Origin: a virus
DNA length: 64,000 nt
Direction: 5' to 3' (one strand)
IMG/VR virus record: IMGVR_UViG_3300031537_000001
Location: 1-64,000 of that record
A program made the translations under genes and the position numbers. Positions 2,529 to 26,500 of the stretch are shown one piece after another. Numbering within the stretch: the stretch's first letter is position 1; each line of letters begins with the position of its first letter. The notes under the pieces were generated by a model. It had not been told where the DNA came from. It saw only the letters and a program-made list of their open reading frames with translations, and did not search any database.

Positions 2529-3165
2529 TGCTTTCAGTATTACTGTACTTATCCATATAGTAGTGTTCAGCTAAAGTAGCTGCAATTTTTAAAATATCGC
2601 GATGTAAACCTGAATCAAGTTCACACTGAGTTGTTGTTGTTACTCCATCAATTGCTGGAGATATTGTATCTAAAACAATAGGGACTGGTTTACGTAAATA
2701 TCTACAAGTATATAGAGTAGGAGTAAATCCATTTCTAACATAAATCTCAACAGATCCTCCTGTATTATCCATCGATATTCTCCAAGCTCTTCTTCTTGGC
2801 GGATATACATATGGTTTAGACAATTTCTGTTGAAGTTGTTCATTACTTATTGCCAAAACAATATGTTGTATACCTGATACATTTTCAATTTGTTCATTTA
2901 GAATTTTAAAATACCCAGAAGGTAAACTAAAAATATAAGCAGAATTATTTAATAAACCTGCTACTGGAGAATTATCAGTATGAACAGAGATTAAATCTGG
3001 AAACCTATCTCCAGATGGTTCCGATTTTAAAACTTCTTTTAACAGTAGTTCTTGTGCATGAGTTAAGATTACAGACTTTTCGTATGTATCTAACCCTGGT
3101 GCATTATTGGCATTTATGTTCTCATAAATAACATCTAACTCACTACTGAATTCTGCTGTTGTCAT
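2509..3165 (-). CDS. Ring/head-tail adaptor-like protein
   Basis: A 218-residue protein sharing the YEKS-(V/L)-x-LT-x-AQ block with the gene at 1839-2528. The middle region includes PPRRRAWRISM, a basic patch. It overlaps the upstream 290-residue gene by 4 bases (ATGA arrangement). A neck or ring component is the likely role by position; no catalytic motif is seen. Confidence 0.7.
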   Translation of the reverse strand: MTTAEFSSELDVIYENINANNAPGLDTYEKSVILTHAQELLLKEVLKSEPSGDRFPDLISVHTDNSPVAGLLNNSAYIFSLPSGYFKILNEQIENVSGIQHIVLAISNEQLQQKLSKPYVYPPRRRAWRISMDNTGGSVEIYVRNGFTPTLYTCRYLRKPVPIVLDTISPAIDGVTTTTQCELDSGLHRDILKIAATLAEHYYMDKYSNTESNDSRRN

Positions 3166-4034
3166 ATATTTTCAATTTCTGCTTCTAAGCGTATTCTCAT
3201 ATCCTGACCATCGTTTGTTGATAAGAACTCTAAAGCATTGTTTAAAGTAGGTGATATATTTGGAGATGATATATTTAGTCCATCCAGAGTTTGATATAAA
3301 CCTCCATTTACTTTTACTACATTACTTGCTACAGCCTTTTTCAACAGAACTTTTAATTTGTAATAAGGATCATTCAAAATAGATAAGAAATCTTTCGGAT
3401 TTTTAGTAACTCTTTTTCCGATTTGACTTTTAATCCATTCTTTAGAAGAATCCCCTGCAACTCTTACACCGTACATTAATAGTACATCTTTCATTGCATC
3501 TTCACTATCTTCAATCTTTCCAAATTGTTTGAAAGCTTCCATTTGAACATCAACAGTTTTATTAAATGTAATGCTTTCTTCATTAGGCCATACTATAACA
3601 AATTTTTGAGTAAGTAAAGGATTTTTATTATACTCTGACAAACTTCCTGCAATCAAATCAGAATATGCAGTAAGAGCTTTAACCTTTATATACTCATGAG
3701 GATCTTGTAAATTTAATTGTAAATCCTCTTTTGTTAAAGTAATACTTAATTGAGCCCAATAATTATCAACCTTTTTATAGATAGATAATCCATCAGATCC
3801 CAATCCTAACAATTTTTCAAGGCCTTCTTTTTCAACTTTTGTAAGAACGTTTGCAAATTGACCCTTTTCTAATTGTTTACAAGTAAGTGTAATTCCACTT
3901 CCGTCGAGCAATCCGCCATATGCTATATGTCTCTCGTTTACAATTTGGCCTCTTTGCCTTTTTATAAATTTAATTGTTACAATACCTTCCGGTAAAGTAA
4001 AAATTTCTTCTTTTTTTGTAGTAACTCCTGCCAT
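3162..4034 (-). CDS. Virion protein of unknown function downstream of the capsid gene
   Basis: A 290-residue protein, Lys-rich, starting MAGVTTKKEEIFTLPEG. The first 50 residues look beta-rich and the rest helical. It is the first gene after the major capsid protein, separated from it by a GC-rich hairpin (4062-4083). Position suggests a capsid auxiliary or head-completion protein, without sequence proof. Confidence 0.65.
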   Translation of the reverse strand: MAGVTTKKEEIFTLPEGIVTIKFIKRQRGQIVNERHIAYGGLLDGSGITLTCKQLEKGQFANVLTKVEKEGLEKLLGLGSDGLSIYKKVDNYWAQLSITLTKEDLQLNLQDPHEYIKVKALTAYSDLIAGSLSEYNKNPLLTQKFVIVWPNEESITFNKTVDVQMEAFKQFGKIEDSEDAMKDVLLMYGVRVAGDSSKEWIKSQIGKRVTKNPKDFLSILNDPYYKLKVLLKKAVASNVVKVNGGLYQTLDGLNISSPNISPTLNNALEFLSTNDGQDMRIRLEAEIENI

Positions 4035-19041: not shown

Positions 19042-19202
19042 GTTTTGTACTCAACAAAACTATCCAGTAAGCTACTGGCCTTGTTGATGGATTCTTAGAG
19101 TAAACGAATCCTGTCTTTTTAAGATATTATTATACAAACCCTCAGAGTTGAAATACTCATGGTGATATCGTTAAATCAATTTAATTGATTACTAATTGTA
19201 TA
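19042..19202 (+). ncRNA. Structured RNA, copy 1 of the CCAGTAAG-hairpin class
   Basis: Within a 207-base gene gap. Stems in order: GTTTTGT/ACAAAAC (19,042/19,054), CCAG-taagcta-CTGG (19,064-19,078), GGATTC/GAATCC (19,089/19,106), and a closing helix TATACAA/TTGTATA (19,131/19,196) enclosing GAGT/ACTC and AATCAAT/ATTGATT. The block ACTATCCAGTAAG...CTGGCC (19,059-19,080) recurs at 23,562-23,583 after a similar TTGTAC hairpin, so this is a repeated RNA element rather than chance folding. Confidence 0.6.
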
Positions 19203-21540: not shown

Positions 21541-21603
21541 ATAAGTTCATTGATATTATTTCAAAAGTTTGTTTGGACGTGGGTTCGATTCCCATCAGCT
21601 CCA
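21541..21603 (+). ncRNA. ssrA: Permuted tmRNA, acceptor piece (3' half)
   Basis: The segment GTTTGGACGTGGGTTCG (21,570-21,586) and ATTCCCATCAGCTCCA (21,588-21,603) reproduce the tmRNA T-arm and 3' acceptor strand: T-stem GTGGG/CCCAT, T-loop TTCGATT, acceptor strand CAGCTCC and discriminator A. CCA is not encoded. Only 60 bases separate it from the upstream terminator, so no 5' half can precede it. TATTATTT (21,554-21,561) can pair with AAGTAATA (21,847-21,854) of the coding piece, reforming helix P2. The 5' boundary is estimated. Confidence 0.8.
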
Positions 21604-21821
21604 CATATGGGGTGTTTTTGGTTGATTTTATATTTAAAGCTAAACGAATACTAGTATAAGTTTAGGAAAGGGTATAAATGAAGTGAAAATTCGTTGTAAC
21701 ATGTACCAATAGTGCGAACACCTCGCCTGCATCGATTTCGCCAATTGATAATGAATGTTGATCTGAATTAACAGGGATTTTGAGGAAGTTACGGTACTTC
21801 CAACATTCATTTTTAAAACAT
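21604..21821 (+). other. Intervening spacer of the permuted tmRNA gene
   Basis: About 218 bases between the mature 3' and 5' ends, with no convincing gene. It holds stems CTAAAC/GTTTAG (near 21,640-21,665), GCGA/TCGC (near 21,714-21,726), and AATGAATGTTG/CAACATTCATT (11 bp, near 21,750-21,811) enclosing GGAAGT/ACTTCC. It starts with TGGGGTGTTTTTGGTT, an imperfect second copy of the tmRNA 5' end, possibly a relic of the duplication that permuted the gene. Confidence 0.55.
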
Positions 21822-21966
21822 GGGGCTGATTTTGGTTTTGACAGCAAAGTAATAGAAGTAAAGGAGAGCTTATTAGCTGTGTAAACGGCAACATAATTAA
21901 TTTATTTGATAGGAAACTAGCAATGGTTGCCTAACAACGAGACTGAGGGAAGCGAAAGTTCCCTCA
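21822..21966 (+). ncRNA. ssrA: Permuted tmRNA, coding piece with tag reading frame
   Basis: GGGGCTGATTTTGGTTTTGA (21,822-21,841) followed by CAGC matches the universal tmRNA 5' end (GGGGCUGAUUCUGGAUUCGACAGC). GGGGCTG pairs in all 7 positions with CAGCTCC of the upstream acceptor piece. A frame GNIINLFDRKLAMVA ends in TAA at 21,932-21,934; this resembles plastid and cyanobacterial degradation tags more than the ...NYALAA tags of ordinary bacteria. GCAA/TTGC around the tag end and an 8-bp hairpin TGAGGGAA/TTCCCTCA (about 21,943-21,966) follow. It would rescue stalled ribosomes using host SmpB. The 3' boundary is estimated. Confidence 0.78.
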
Positions 21967-21969
21967 CAT

Positions 21970-22042
21970 TGAGAAATAACTCAGTTGGTAGAGTGACACG
22001 CTGTTAACGTGTAAGTCGTAGGTTCGAGTCCTACTTTCTCAG
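21970..22042 (+). tRNA. tRNA-Asn (anticodon GUU)
   Basis: A full cloverleaf of 73 nt: acceptor TGAGAAA/TTTCTCA, D-arm CTC...GAG with loop containing GTTGG, anticodon stem ACACG/CGTGT with loop CTGTTAA (GUU, U33 present), T-arm GTAGG-TTCGAGT-CCTAC. CCA is not encoded. It lies 4 bases after the tmRNA coding-piece hairpin, so both may be processed from one transcript. Confidence 0.92.
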
Positions 22043-22046
22043 CTAT

Positions 22047-22138
22047 AATAAACTTCTATTCAAGTAATTATGATGTAGAAACTCTCAAAAGGGACCAATG
22101 AAGTAATTATTAAATACATGTTAGAATAGGAGTTTATT
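22047..22138 (+). ncRNA. Closed-helix structured RNA 1
   Basis: AATAAACTTCTATTC (22,047-22,061) pairs with GAATAGGAGTTTATT (22,124-22,138), 15 bp with one G-U. It begins 5 bases after tRNA-Asn. The interior holds two copies of AAGTAATTA and a possible ATGTA/TACAT helix. No start codon frame of note inside. Confidence 0.6.
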
Positions 22139-22170
22139 TTCTTACAAAAACTAACTAAAAATATACAATC

Positions 22171-22281
22171 ATGAGAGAATTTTTAATAGTATTGGCAATC
22201 TATTATATGTATAGATTGTTTAAATGGTTTAATAAAAAATGTAAACCAGAAGATATTGGTATTATGGATTTAAAGGATTAG
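22171..22281 (+). CDS. Small membrane protein (36 aa)
   Basis: A 36-codon frame MREFLIVLAIYYMYRLFKWF..., one membrane helix then a Lys-rich stretch. It follows the CTAACTAAAAATATACAATC leader, related to those of other small genes here. Confidence 0.5.
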   Translation: MREFLIVLAIYYMYRLFKWFNKKCKPEDIGIMDLKD

Positions 22282-22319
22282 ATTCCATTATTGAAGATTA
22301 ATAATTAAAACTGATTACT

Positions 22320-22556
22320 ATGGGAAAACTAATGGATAGACTACAAAAACAATTAAAAAATCCTGAAACTAAACAAGATGCTGAAGATTGTATTAAAATA
22401 TATAATTATCTTGAAGAACAATCTGGGGGACATGTATGGTCTTCGCAATGGGGACCGTTGACGAATGTAAAATTCAAAGGTTTCCCAAGTGATGAAAGGA
22501 ATTATAGTCTTAATAATATCGGTAAATTAGTATTAAAAGGATTAGAAAATAATTAA
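22320..22556 (+). CDS. Unknown small protein (78 aa)
   Basis: A 78-residue protein, helical first half (MGKLMDRLQKQLKNPETKQD) and a Gly/Trp-containing second half. No recognised family. Confidence 0.55.
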   Translation: MGKLMDRLQKQLKNPETKQDAEDCIKIYNYLEEQSGGHVWSSQWGPLTNVKFKGFPSDERNYSLNNIGKLVLKGLENN

Positions 22557-22567
22557 AATTGATTATT

Positions 22568-23005
22568 ATGAATATAGATAGATCCAATAAAAACTGGAAT
22601 ACCAAAATATCTGATGAAGATATTTTAAATGAAGAGTTCTCAATAGGTTATTTATTACAAACTAATCTACATAATCCATTATTAGCTGAATTAAAAGATA
22701 AAGTTTTATCTACTTATAATGTAACTGCAAAATTTGAATGGTTAGGTTATAACGGTGCTTCTATTTATTGTAATGGTCAAAAATTAGTTTATAGAAAAGA
22801 TAAATTTTCAAACTTTAGTATAGGTAAAAATGTTCAAGTAATAGAACACAATTTATCTACTAACGGAGGTGGTTCAAATAATTATCCATCCATAGCGTAT
22901 AAAGGTGCAAGTATAATATTGCAATTTATTTCTTATGGATTGCCTTATGTAAATAAAACAAACGGATGGAATATAAATATAATTAGTTTAGATAAAATTG
23001 AATAA
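22568..23005 (+). CDS. Unknown protein (145 aa)
   Basis: A 145-residue protein starting MNIDRSNKNWNTKISDEDIL; 11 bases after the previous stop. The second half is beta-rich with a Gly/Asn loop (STNGGGSNNYPSIAYKG). Function unknown. It is followed by two closed-helix RNAs. Confidence 0.6.
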   Translation: MNIDRSNKNWNTKISDEDILNEEFSIGYLLQTNLHNPLLAELKDKVLSTYNVTAKFEWLGYNGASIYCNGQKLVYRKDKFSNFSIGKNVQVIEHNLSTNGGGSNNYPSIAYKGASIILQFISYGLPYVNKTNGWNINIISLDKIE

Positions 23006-23040
23006 AAACATTAAATCCTAAACTTGAAGATTAAACAAGT

Positions 23041-23156
23041 TAAACTCTCATCCAATTTGCGGGTTAAATATGTAGAGGTGCTCTTAGTTATGTACAGACG
23101 ACGGTGAGACTGAAAAGAAGTGATACAGTTAGAGATAGCAACCCTATGAGAGTTTA
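23041..23156 (+). ncRNA. Closed-helix structured RNA 2
   Basis: TAAACTCTCAT (23,041-51) pairs perfectly with ATGAGAGTTTA (23,146-56). Inside are GGGTT/AACCC (23,061/23,140), the hairpin AGAG-gtg-CTCT (23,074-84) and ACTG/CAGT (near 23,108-23,130), giving a multi-branched fold. No reading frame spans it. Confidence 0.6.
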
Positions 23157-23162
23157 TTTAAA

Positions 23163-23258
23163 ATATTATCAAAAACCAGTAATGGAAGTTTGTAATTAAT
23201 GCCATCTGAAATATGGTGAAATTCGTTACGGCTAGATTACAAACTATTTTGATAATAT
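23163..23258 (+). ncRNA. Closed-helix structured RNA 3
   Basis: ATATTATCAAAA (23,163-74) pairs with TTTTGATAATAT (23,247-58), 12 bp perfect. A second perfect 10-bp helix AGTTTGTAAT/ATTACAAACT (23,187/23,236) and an inner GCCAT/ATGGT (23,201/23,213) stack above it, separated by a 12-base one-sided internal loop. Confidence 0.6.
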
Positions 23259-23418
23259 AAGTGAATATTTGTATTAACAATCCTACTTCCAAAAGGGATA
23301 TTTGGGACTTGGAGAGAACAACAACCTATTGAAAAATATAGTTATAGTGGTTTATACAATAGTTAATATAATTATCCCTCACTTATTTTACATAATTTTG
23401 TATAAAAATATATTTGTT

Positions 23419-23547
23419 ATGAAATATAAATCAATTAAAGTGTGTTGTAATATTATTAAAACTACAACATCTTCGAGAGAAAAATTAATTGCTCAATTTT
23501 TACTATTAAGATTGATTAATAAAGGTATACGTAAAGACATTAATTAA
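23419..23547 (+). CDS. Unknown small protein (42 aa)
   Basis: A 42-residue basic, helical frame, MKYKSIKVCCNIIKTTTSSR.... A promoter-like TATATTTG lies only 2 bases before the ATG (23,409-23,416), so either the message is leaderless or the box is coincidental. The upstream 100 bases in the same frame use a TTG start and look non-coding. Confidence 0.4.
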   Translation: MKYKSIKVCCNIIKTTTSSREKLIAQFLLLRLINKGIRKDIN

Positions 23548-23550
23548 AGA

Positions 23551-23710
23551 GTTGTTGTACAACTATCCAGTAAGTTCCTGGCCAATTTAACTGTCAATGA
23601 CTGTGTTAGGTTGAGAAATTTAACCTCACCAACTACTTAGGTATTGGTACAGATGAAAACGAGGTGAATGGAGTTAGCTGTTGAGACTCCATAGAATAAA
23701 GTATCTAAGT
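23551..23710 (+). ncRNA. Structured RNA, copy 2 of the CCAGTAAG-hairpin class
   Basis: After a GTTGTACAAC palindromic hairpin comes ACTATCCAGTAAG...CTGGCC (23,562-23,583), matching copy 1 at 19,059-19,080. Further stems are GGTT/AACC near 23,609-23,625, a 9-bp closing helix ACTTAGGTA/TATCTAAGT (23,635/23,702) and the inner hairpin TGGAGT/ACTCCA (23,669/23,686). The conserved head with a divergent tail suggests one RNA family. Confidence 0.6.
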
Positions 23711-23736
23711 CAATTTATTTGATATGATAACAATAT

Positions 23737-23809
23737 AATACAAACAAGGTGGCCCGTGAAACTTTGAAACATAAAAGGACCGGAAAATGTTCCTCTATCT
23801 GTTTGTATT
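23737..23809 (+). ncRNA. Closed-helix structured RNA 5
   Basis: AATACAAACA (23,737-46) pairs perfectly with TGTTTGTATT (23,800-09). The 53-base interior is G-rich for this genome (AGGTGGCCCGTG, AGGACCGG), suggesting further conserved structure. Confidence 0.5.
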
Positions 23810-23813
23810 GGCA

Positions 23814-23877
23814 GCTAAATAAGTTTGTGGTTTATCCAACTTTTAATGGGAAGGGATCTACGAAACAATTATTTAGC
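23814..23877 (+). ncRNA. Closed-helix structured RNA 6
   Basis: GCTAAATAA (23,814-22) pairs with TTATTTAGC (23,869-77), extended by GTTTGT against ACGAAAC with a bulge. It starts 5 bases after element 5, so the two could be arms of one larger RNA. Confidence 0.5.
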
Positions 23878-23903
23878 ATTCAAATATGAAAGTATTTGTC
23901 TTA

Positions 23904-23984
23904 TAATTTTATTATTAATTGTGGGATTCATCAAGCGAGTTTCCTTAATAAAATTAATTGTGCAATCCTGGGTTGATAACCAGG
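23904..23984 (+). ncRNA. Closed-helix structured RNA 7 and adjoining hairpin
   Basis: TAATTTTATTA (23,904-14) pairs perfectly with TAATAAAATTA (23,946-56); then CCTGG (23,967-71) pairs with CCAGG (23,980-84). It lies directly before the gene at 24,004 and could also act as its 5' leader. Confidence 0.45.
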
Positions 23985-24003
23985 AAAATATAAATTCAAA
24001 GTT

Positions 24004-24207
24004 ATGATTAAAAATAAAGATTTAGCAATAGAAAAACTTCCGTCAAGAATAAGATATTATTTATTAGATTGGAAAGATTCACATATGGATGAATATGTTT
24101 ATAAATATGGTGAAATAAGTTTATGTAATTTAACATTAAAGCAATTAAAAGGTTTATATACTTATGTATGTATAAAAGATGCTGAATTATTAATAGGGAT
24201 AAAATAA
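24004..24207 (+). CDS. Unknown small protein (67 aa)
   Basis: A 67-residue protein, MIKNKDLAIEKLPSRIRYYL..., with good codon pattern. Its stop codon overlaps the first base pairs of the large four-way-junction RNA that follows, so translation and RNA folding may interfere. Confidence 0.6.
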   Translation: MIKNKDLAIEKLPSRIRYYLLDWKDSHMDEYVYKYGEISLCNLTLKQLKGLYTYVCIKDAELLIGIK

Positions 24208-24439
24208 AGATTTGGTAACTAAATAATTAAAGATGACATTCATAATTATTTAGTCAATATTGTTGTTTAATATGTAAAATAAAAAGTATGCTTACAACCC
24301 TTATTTGGTAATGTTGAAATAGTATATAGATTATTAAACAACTTTATTGTGTTTTGATTAATACGAAAGTATAATAGCAGGATGAAGTGATAGTACGTAA
24401 TGTTCAAATCTATCATTAATCAAAACTTATCAAATCTTT
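24206..24439 (+). ncRNA. Four-way-junction RNA, about 235 nt
   Basis: The base helix is AAAGATTTGGTAA/TTATCAAATCTTT (24,206/24,427; 13 bp, one G-U). Three arms follow without gaps: CTAAATAATTA/TAATTATTTAG (24,219/24,243), GTTGTTTAATA/TATTAAACAAC (24,262/24,332; inner CAAC/GTTG hairpin at 24,296), and GTTTTGATTAAT/ATTAATCAAAAC (24,351/24,415; inner ATAC-GAAA-GTAT tetraloop hairpin and GATAG/CTATC). All three arm helices are perfect over 11-12 bp. No reading frame of note crosses it. Function unknown. Confidence 0.75.
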
Positions 24440-24448
24440 TTAAAATAT

Positions 24449-24639
24449 AAAATCTTTCTGCTTATGAAGCATTTAATATGCAGCCAATTAAGTTTGTGAA
24501 CCGTTAGTCGTAGATTTGGCAAATCAGTTTGTGGATTAAGATAGATTTACTATGTAATGCATAGTCCAATTGTAGTAGCTAAAATGCGAATAGGCGGTTA
24601 AGTAACTATTACCTTGCCAGGTACAGAAGGATTTTTTTT
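24449..24639 (+). ncRNA. Six-helix RNA ending in a U-run, about 190 nt
   Basis: The base helix AAAATCTTTCTG/CAGAAGGATTTT (24,449/24,624; 12 bp, one G-U) is followed by eight T residues, so it doubles as a terminator. Inside are GCAT/ATGC (24,469), AACCG/CGGTT (24,499/24,595), GATTT/AAATC (24,513), ACTATG/CATAGT (24,549) and TACCT/AGGTA (24,610). It starts 9 bases after the four-way-junction RNA. Confidence 0.7.
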
Positions 24640-24666
24640 ATTAATATTCAACTAAATTTAAATATT

Positions 24667-26423: not shown

Positions 26424-26500
26424 ACTCGACTAAGCGAGTATAAATAGGTGTTAAGCTTAGTGCGTTGAAAAGGTCACATTAATAATTAATACATATAAAA

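Follow-up and report, generated by a model that had tools for sequence, protein, structure and literature searches.

Predicted structured RNAs with conserved cores and hypervariable arms in an array beside a phage tmRNA and tRNA

Among the structured RNAs of phages, GOLLD is often located near tRNA islands and combines a conserved 3' and a less conserved 5' region with kissing loops, while ROOL, equally found near tRNA islands, features pseudoknots and conserved kissing contacts (PMC12286853). Theta ribozymes, which are like that of hepatitis delta virus (HDV), occur beside tRNAs in gut phages using alternative genetic codes and have been proposed to process phage tRNAs (PMC10879173). Here we describe an array of closed-helix elements at 22047-24640 on the + strand of positions 1-64000 (hereafter the window) of the 93,292-bp virus record IMGVR_UViG_3300031537_000001, where it lies beside a transfer-messenger RNA (tmRNA) and a tRNA-Asn. 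The original prediction, made from the letters of this DNA, had considered the elements to be either related to GOLLD and ROOL or a new class.

To some extent the array RNAs resemble GOLLD and ROOL in their setting (phage and, in some cases, a nearby tRNA) and in their predicted kissing loops. Another property of GOLLD is its assembly into an RNA nanocage. Many GOLLD RNAs, however, exceed 800 nt, compared to about 165-290 nt for the family designated J and about 76-155 nt for the family designated E2, and membership in GOLLD is ruled out by this far smaller size and by the lack of a covariance model match. ROOL is equally ruled out, as its Rfam covariance model gives no match, and no sequence or secondary structure in common with it was found. 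More generally, a cmscan of the window and its relatives against Rfam 15, in gathering and E-value modes, shows no family matching any array element; this includes the tmRNA models RF00023 and RF04321, although a permuted tmRNA belongs to the same cluster. Theta ribozymes are, like the array members, small structured RNAs beside phage tRNAs, yet they are tRNA-associated and self-cleaving, whereas J is characterised by hypervariable arms and varied neighbours. Of the two possibilities originally raised, kinship with GOLLD or ROOL hence falls away, while J and E2 are predicted to be new families; the array, with RNAs of about 75-290 nt, comprises several separate RNA families and not one class. 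For Crassvirales and for phages of Cellulophaga, the open literature searched mentions no structured RNAs of such kind; as this search did not extend to bioRxiv or to most papers behind a subscription, a prior description is possible.

The J and E2 families

Covariation in relatives, which the original prediction had named as a check, was found for the J-type, E2-type, E6 and E10 elements of the array, and this comparative evidence confirms these four as structured RNAs. The window members of the two families are:

24449-24640, + strand: J-family RNA, divergent subtype; P1 24449-24460/24624-24635; closing 24449-24635, 12 bp with G-U; two variable arms
23040-23156, + strand: E2-family RNA; closing 23041-23156, 11 bp; 3' hairpin; one variable arm

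A 21-nt block common to phage genomes G007 and G017 served as seed for J and was scanned in IMG/VR. It matched 43 contigs, 40 of which are genuine; the other three (L054, L075, L083) lack the J context, look coding or like chance matches and were dropped. Two phages of Cellulophaga that are in culture, phi14:2 (Crassvirales) and the unrelated phi4:1 (Lightbulbvirus), also have J. It occupies KC821624 1283-1575 in phi14:2, where a second RNA lies at 2905-3365, and NC_021788 129597-129799 in phi4:1. A single further contig with a match is binned with a Lutibacter metagenome-assembled genome, which is too little for naming a host range. From 5' to 3' the RNA consists of the closing helix P1 (AAACUCUUUG/CAAAGAGUUU), P2 (AUAAAC/GUUUAU), arm 1, the hairpin P4 (AACUG-UAUCAG-CAGUU), arm 2, P6 and a 3' U-run. 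Its length is 166-262 nt among the 28 distinct copies of alignment A4 and about 290 nt in phi14:2. In A4, P1 is paired in 93.6% of cells, with double changes at 8 of its 10 pairs, and overall 86.8% of cells pair, a value reached by none of 500 shuffles, compared to 40-51% with slid partners. The P4 hairpin was fixed by the search pattern. In two copies (L078 and L088) the 3' strand of P2 carries a common 17-nt insert, CCCGUAAGGGUAUUAAA.

G-U cells (79, of which 27 are supplied by one nearly invariant G-U pair) exceed A-C cells (17), and J is therefore predicted to fold as RNA of the + strand. This bears on the idea that the elements act as DNA, be it as inverted-repeat mobile elements or as hairpins serving replication or packaging. 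Perfect terminal inverted repeats and the presence of some elements more than once per genome would agree with it, but the interiors are conserved in sequence, no common ends are seen and the G-U excess indicates an RNA of one strand. Since the repeats covary and are not the same from one element to the next, mobile inverted repeats are rejected, and a DNA-level function of any kind appears very improbable.

The model R1 of J was made without the window sequence. With filters off it scores 24449-24640 at 29.7 bits over the full length (E 8e-4 over 64 kb), the best match in the window; the next one reaches 18.9 bits. P1 is present, and the loops of P4 (UGGCAA, 24517-24522) and P6 (UUGCCA, 24614-24619) are complementary. 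Homologs of this element at L004 6630-6805 and L044 6890-7081 also match R1. They belong to the relatives G001 (93,532 bp; found by protein searches, 80% in a neighbouring protein, and carrying a homologous array) and G010 (88,518 bp; L018; reached by a pattern taken from G001), and the closing helix covaries across these three sequences. A further divergent member is L007 (24.6 bits, E 0.08).

Complementarity of the P4 and P6 loops is retained, in spite of differing sequences, in divergent J members which the search pattern had left free (UAUCAG/CUGAUA, UAUCA/UGAUG, CAGU/ACUG, UUCAG/CUGAA and GCAGU/ACUGC, besides the window pair). In a permutation test with the six distinct loop types, the true combination is the only one among 720 to attain the observed score, and none of 20,000 permutations does so when all nine members of this set are used. 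As the loops were delimited by eye, this evidence for a predicted kissing contact which covaries across J subtypes is strong but not blind. The contact may form within one molecule or between molecules.

Median pairwise identity of J copies is 0.84 in the core and drops to 0.50 in arm 1 and 0.49 in arm 2, which we estimate, without computation, to be about the level of unrelated AT-rich sequence under global alignment. At the level of sequence comparison, arms have clearly been exchanged between phages. The pairs L061/L066 and L056/L094 have arm 1 in common and differ in arm 2, while L062, L071 and L073 have arm 2 in common and differ in arm 1. In the unrelated phages phi4:1 and phi14:2, which both infect Cellulophaga baltica, arm 1 is 91% identical over 54 nt and arm 2 is not alike. 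The J arm of L067 also cross-matches L028 14475, but this position belongs to the terminal part of a protein gene and not to another RNA.

The J RNA overlaps short annotated coding sequences in both cultured phages, namely gp003 and gp004 of phi14:2 (KC821624 1321-1434, 1470-1619) and gp168 of phi4:1 (NC_021788 129616-129774). These are probably not genes; gp003 and gp004 were dropped from RefSeq in 2020.

The predicted E2 RNA at 23040-23156 has AAACUCUCAUCCAAUUUGC in common with six other distinct phage contigs (seven pattern matches, two of the same sequence; one contig is G011), and a relaxed search among the loci of this comparison added L092, L093 and L058; the family comprises at least nine phages. 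Its plan, all parts of which are found in the window copy, comprises a closing ACUCUCAU helix, a UUUGC segment and the 3' hairpin CAAGG-UGCAA-CCUUG, whose loop is complementary to a 5' UUGCA and would thus form a pseudoknot. In alignment A5, double changes affect two pairs of the pseudoknot and two of the hairpin, compared to at most one in slid controls, which characterises E2 as a new phage RNA family with a predicted covarying pseudoknot. The near invariance of P1 stems from the search, in which this helix was fixed. A variable segment of tens to about 100 nt separates the core halves, and the total length is 76-153 nt. The model R2 scores the window copy, which it includes, at 81 bits; with default filters it misses several of its own members, the window one among them. 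A paralog at L028 11429-11557 (33.5 bits) has a different closing helix.

Helix density and the other elements

All nine closings of the original prediction exist in the sequence, as a fold and a helix listing of the window reveal, and a tenth, 8-bp closing at 23257-23386 had been overlooked. Short open reading frames (ORFs) indeed lie between the elements. The asserted density beyond chance also holds: 22047-24640 contains 8 perfect helices of at least 10 bp with a span of 40-260, about three times the shuffle mean of 2.65 (1 of 500 shuffles reaches 8), and 23035-24000 alone contains 5, compared to 0.56 (0/500). Three coding control stretches of the window show 1, 0 and 0 helices and hence no excess, and no other 2.6-kb stretch within the window exceeds the array. 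Nine perfect helices are present in the homologous array of G001 (1.24 in shuffles, 0/500) and four in that of L018 (0.23, 0/500); by the same crude count, phi14:2 and L049 show no excess over shuffles. Scanning with fixed 130-nt windows gives ordinary minimum free energy z-scores which do not single out 23-24 kb, so that the case is carried by comparison and not by energy. These ordinary energies and the lack of homologs for E3, E4, E7, E8 and E9 are what would be expected of chance helices in AT-rich intergenic DNA. In view of the helix excess here and in two relatives, and of covariation which refutes chance for J, E2, E6 and E10, this explanation of the array as a whole is hardly credible, although single elements outside these four may have arisen by chance.

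The remaining elements of the array and its surroundings are:

21545-21934, + strand: permuted tmRNA (RF04321, 52 bits vs gathering score 47), heading the RNA cluster
21970-22043, + strand: tRNA-Asn(GTT) (ARAGORN; RF00005, 71.6 bits)
22047-22138, + strand: E1 closed-helix element, 15-bp closing, by fold; weak R2 match (18.6 bits, E 0.03)
23162-23259, + strand: E3 closed-helix element, 12-bp closing (23163-23258), inner 10-bp stem; from the fold
23257-23386, + strand: E4 closed-helix element, 8-bp closing; from sequence and fold
23550-23583, + strand: E5-type conserved segment (stem, UAU, CCAGUAAGUUCCUGG, CC)
19042-19081, + strand: second E5-type copy in the window, a sequence match
23623-23692, + strand: E6-type RNA; P1 ACCUC/GAGGU, P2 ACCAA/UUGGU, P3 AUGGAGU/ACUCCAU, conserved loop UAGCUGUUGAG
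23737-23809, + strand: E7 closed-helix element, 10-bp closing; from the fold
23814-23877, + strand: E8 closed-helix element, 9-bp closing; from the fold
23904-23956: E9 closing, 11 bp, A/T-only, spanning just 53 nt
24201-24440, + strand: E10 multi-way junction RNA, closing AAAGAUUUGGUA/UAUCAAAUCUUU; originally predicted helix 24206-24439, 9 bp perfect, longer with G-U
26424-26478: Pistol ribozyme (55 bits, Rfam model), 2 kb downstream of the array

Two of the nine closings are doubtful as RNA helices. The closing of about 10 bp at 23635 to about 23710 is probably not the functional fold because its bases are occupied by the E6 fold, which is backed by the one E6 homolog (L032 176-250) through compensatory double changes, four in P3 and one in P2. 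Support for the E9 closing at 23904 is no better than chance. The E10 homolog of G001 (L004 5619-5811) conserves the closing helix, and one arm, whose strands were paired by eye, has double changes of the compensatory kind; the predicted junction is four-way in the window and three-way in G001. E5, whose fold is less certain, is 94% identical to G001 over 51-52 nt, and its pattern also occurs in L042. E1 is possibly a distant E2-type member.

Some elements might be self-cleaving ribozymes which process a polycistronic tmRNA/tRNA transcript, as proposed for the theta ribozymes. The Pistol ribozyme downstream, the tRNA which in L032 follows E6 closely on its 3' side, the compact, conserved unpaired cores of E2 and E6 and the published HDV-like theta ribozymes adjoining phage tRNAs (PMC10879173) agree with this, and a new ribozyme is possible despite absence from Rfam. 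The ribozyme models of Rfam, among which the presence of a theta model was not checked, give the Pistol match alone and none on any array element, and J, with about 200 nt and hypervariable arms, has no constant position relative to tRNAs. We regard self-cleavage as quite unlikely.

The major capsid protein encoded in the window is best matched by that of phi14:2 (Crassvirales, Steigviridae; 47% identity over 99%), with crAss-like phages also close, and on this nearest match the genome is assigned to Crassvirales. This crAss-like phage has a tmRNA of the two-piece type, in which the reading frame terminates in KLAMVA*, resembling the tag GSSVQKLAMVA of the one-piece tmRNA of phi14:2, and G007 has a one-piece tmRNA as well. 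A conserved 78-aa protein (window 22320-22556; also L007 10001 and L060) without PHROG match is encoded repeatedly next to such RNAs. Compared with annotated phages, array DNA gives matches confined to the tRNA and one small protein gene; DNA-level matches in G002-G009 are mostly protein genes or short chance matches and were rejected as array homologs. Intergenic comparison of G001, G010 and other phage genomes reveals many short conserved non-coding blocks, and further candidate RNAs occur in relatives:

L097 2905-3365, L028 15866-16290 and L037 2042-2920: large conserved RNA 'K', motifs CCUUGAGAAAG, ACACAAAUGAGUUCUCA, GUGACCCU..AGGGUGCUAA; in phi14:2, G007, G017 and partly phi4:1
L018 769-920 and L042 120-210: RNA 'X', blocks of 37 nt and 18 nt identical in two different phages with a variable arm between, which fits a scaffold-plus-arm design
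L032 1147-1330, L004 5287-5400 and L070 after 2116: RNA 'F', ACUAAUUAAGCUAGUUUAU..GAACAGCYACAC..GUGU, in three phages
L102 181-251 and 966-1033: paralogous pair of RNAs which agree in their core, UAUCUAAUC..GGUUUACA..UGUAUUAGUCAGG, but are closed by very dissimilar helices

Neighbours and possible action of the array RNAs

The ORFs next to J fall into 32 clusters among 38. In L063 and L065, J lies inside tRNA arrays and is followed by tRNAs; in L070 it is followed by another RNA and elsewhere by long non-coding stretches. A tRNA is near the J element in the window, L063 and L065, most J contigs having no detected tRNA nearby, and in phi14:2 the distance from J to the tmRNA is about 2.7 kb. As the downstream gene is not conserved, trans-acting RNAs are favoured over cis-regulatory leaders, that is, elements in the 5' untranslated region of the next small gene controlling its translation or stability. 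In several J copies (L060, L061, L066, L091, L092, L095) a start codon does follow within 10-30 nt of the RNA end, and E1 and E4 precede small ORFs in the window. Against leaders stand the unrelated downstream genes, the J copies preceding tRNAs, another RNA or non-coding DNA, and elements which directly adjoin one another without an intervening gene. We consider this alternative unlikely.

The explanation we favour, and as a whole hold to be rather probable, is a + strand cluster of noncoding RNAs beside the phage tmRNA and tRNA, each of which would be a stable molecule of its own and act in trans. Each RNA would be bounded by its own closing helix, at which it would be excised after expression. 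The J and E2 types represent families common to many Bacteroidota phages, in which one or two hypervariable arms are held by a conserved core, made up in J of the closing helix and two hairpins with predicted kissing loops and in E2 of the pseudoknot. The core might serve as a rigid scaffold and the arms as interchangeable modules binding host molecules in infection, for host take-over or counter-defence; as such modules would engage host molecules, the arms would diversify and move between phages. This predicted binding is speculative and, in our judgement, rather doubtful.

Several observations speak against this explanation. E1, E3, E4, E7, E8 and E9 have no convincing homolog among the relatives compared, and the window J member is divergent at its 29.7 bits, has an unclear P2 and goes unreported when R1 is run with default filters on the whole 93-kb record. 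The arm shared by phi4:1 and phi14:2 may reflect mere recombination on a common host, and the variable arms could be neutral, unconstrained insertions instead of binding modules.

What is new about these RNAs is their families and design rather than a proven mechanism. J and E2 are absent from Rfam 15, yet present in abundant crAss-like phages and in cultured marine phages, where annotation has overlooked such RNAs or placed doubtful short ORFs. Since the host of phi14:2 and phi4:1 can be cultured, the role of a small phage RNA becomes directly testable, and arm exchange between unrelated phages provides a comparative handle on the target. Tentatively, Bacteroidota phages may be equipped with a set of unrelated RNA families in which invariant scaffolds present hypervariable, recombining, host-matched arms, and which would correspond, as RNA, to the variable binding proteins directed against host defences or machinery.

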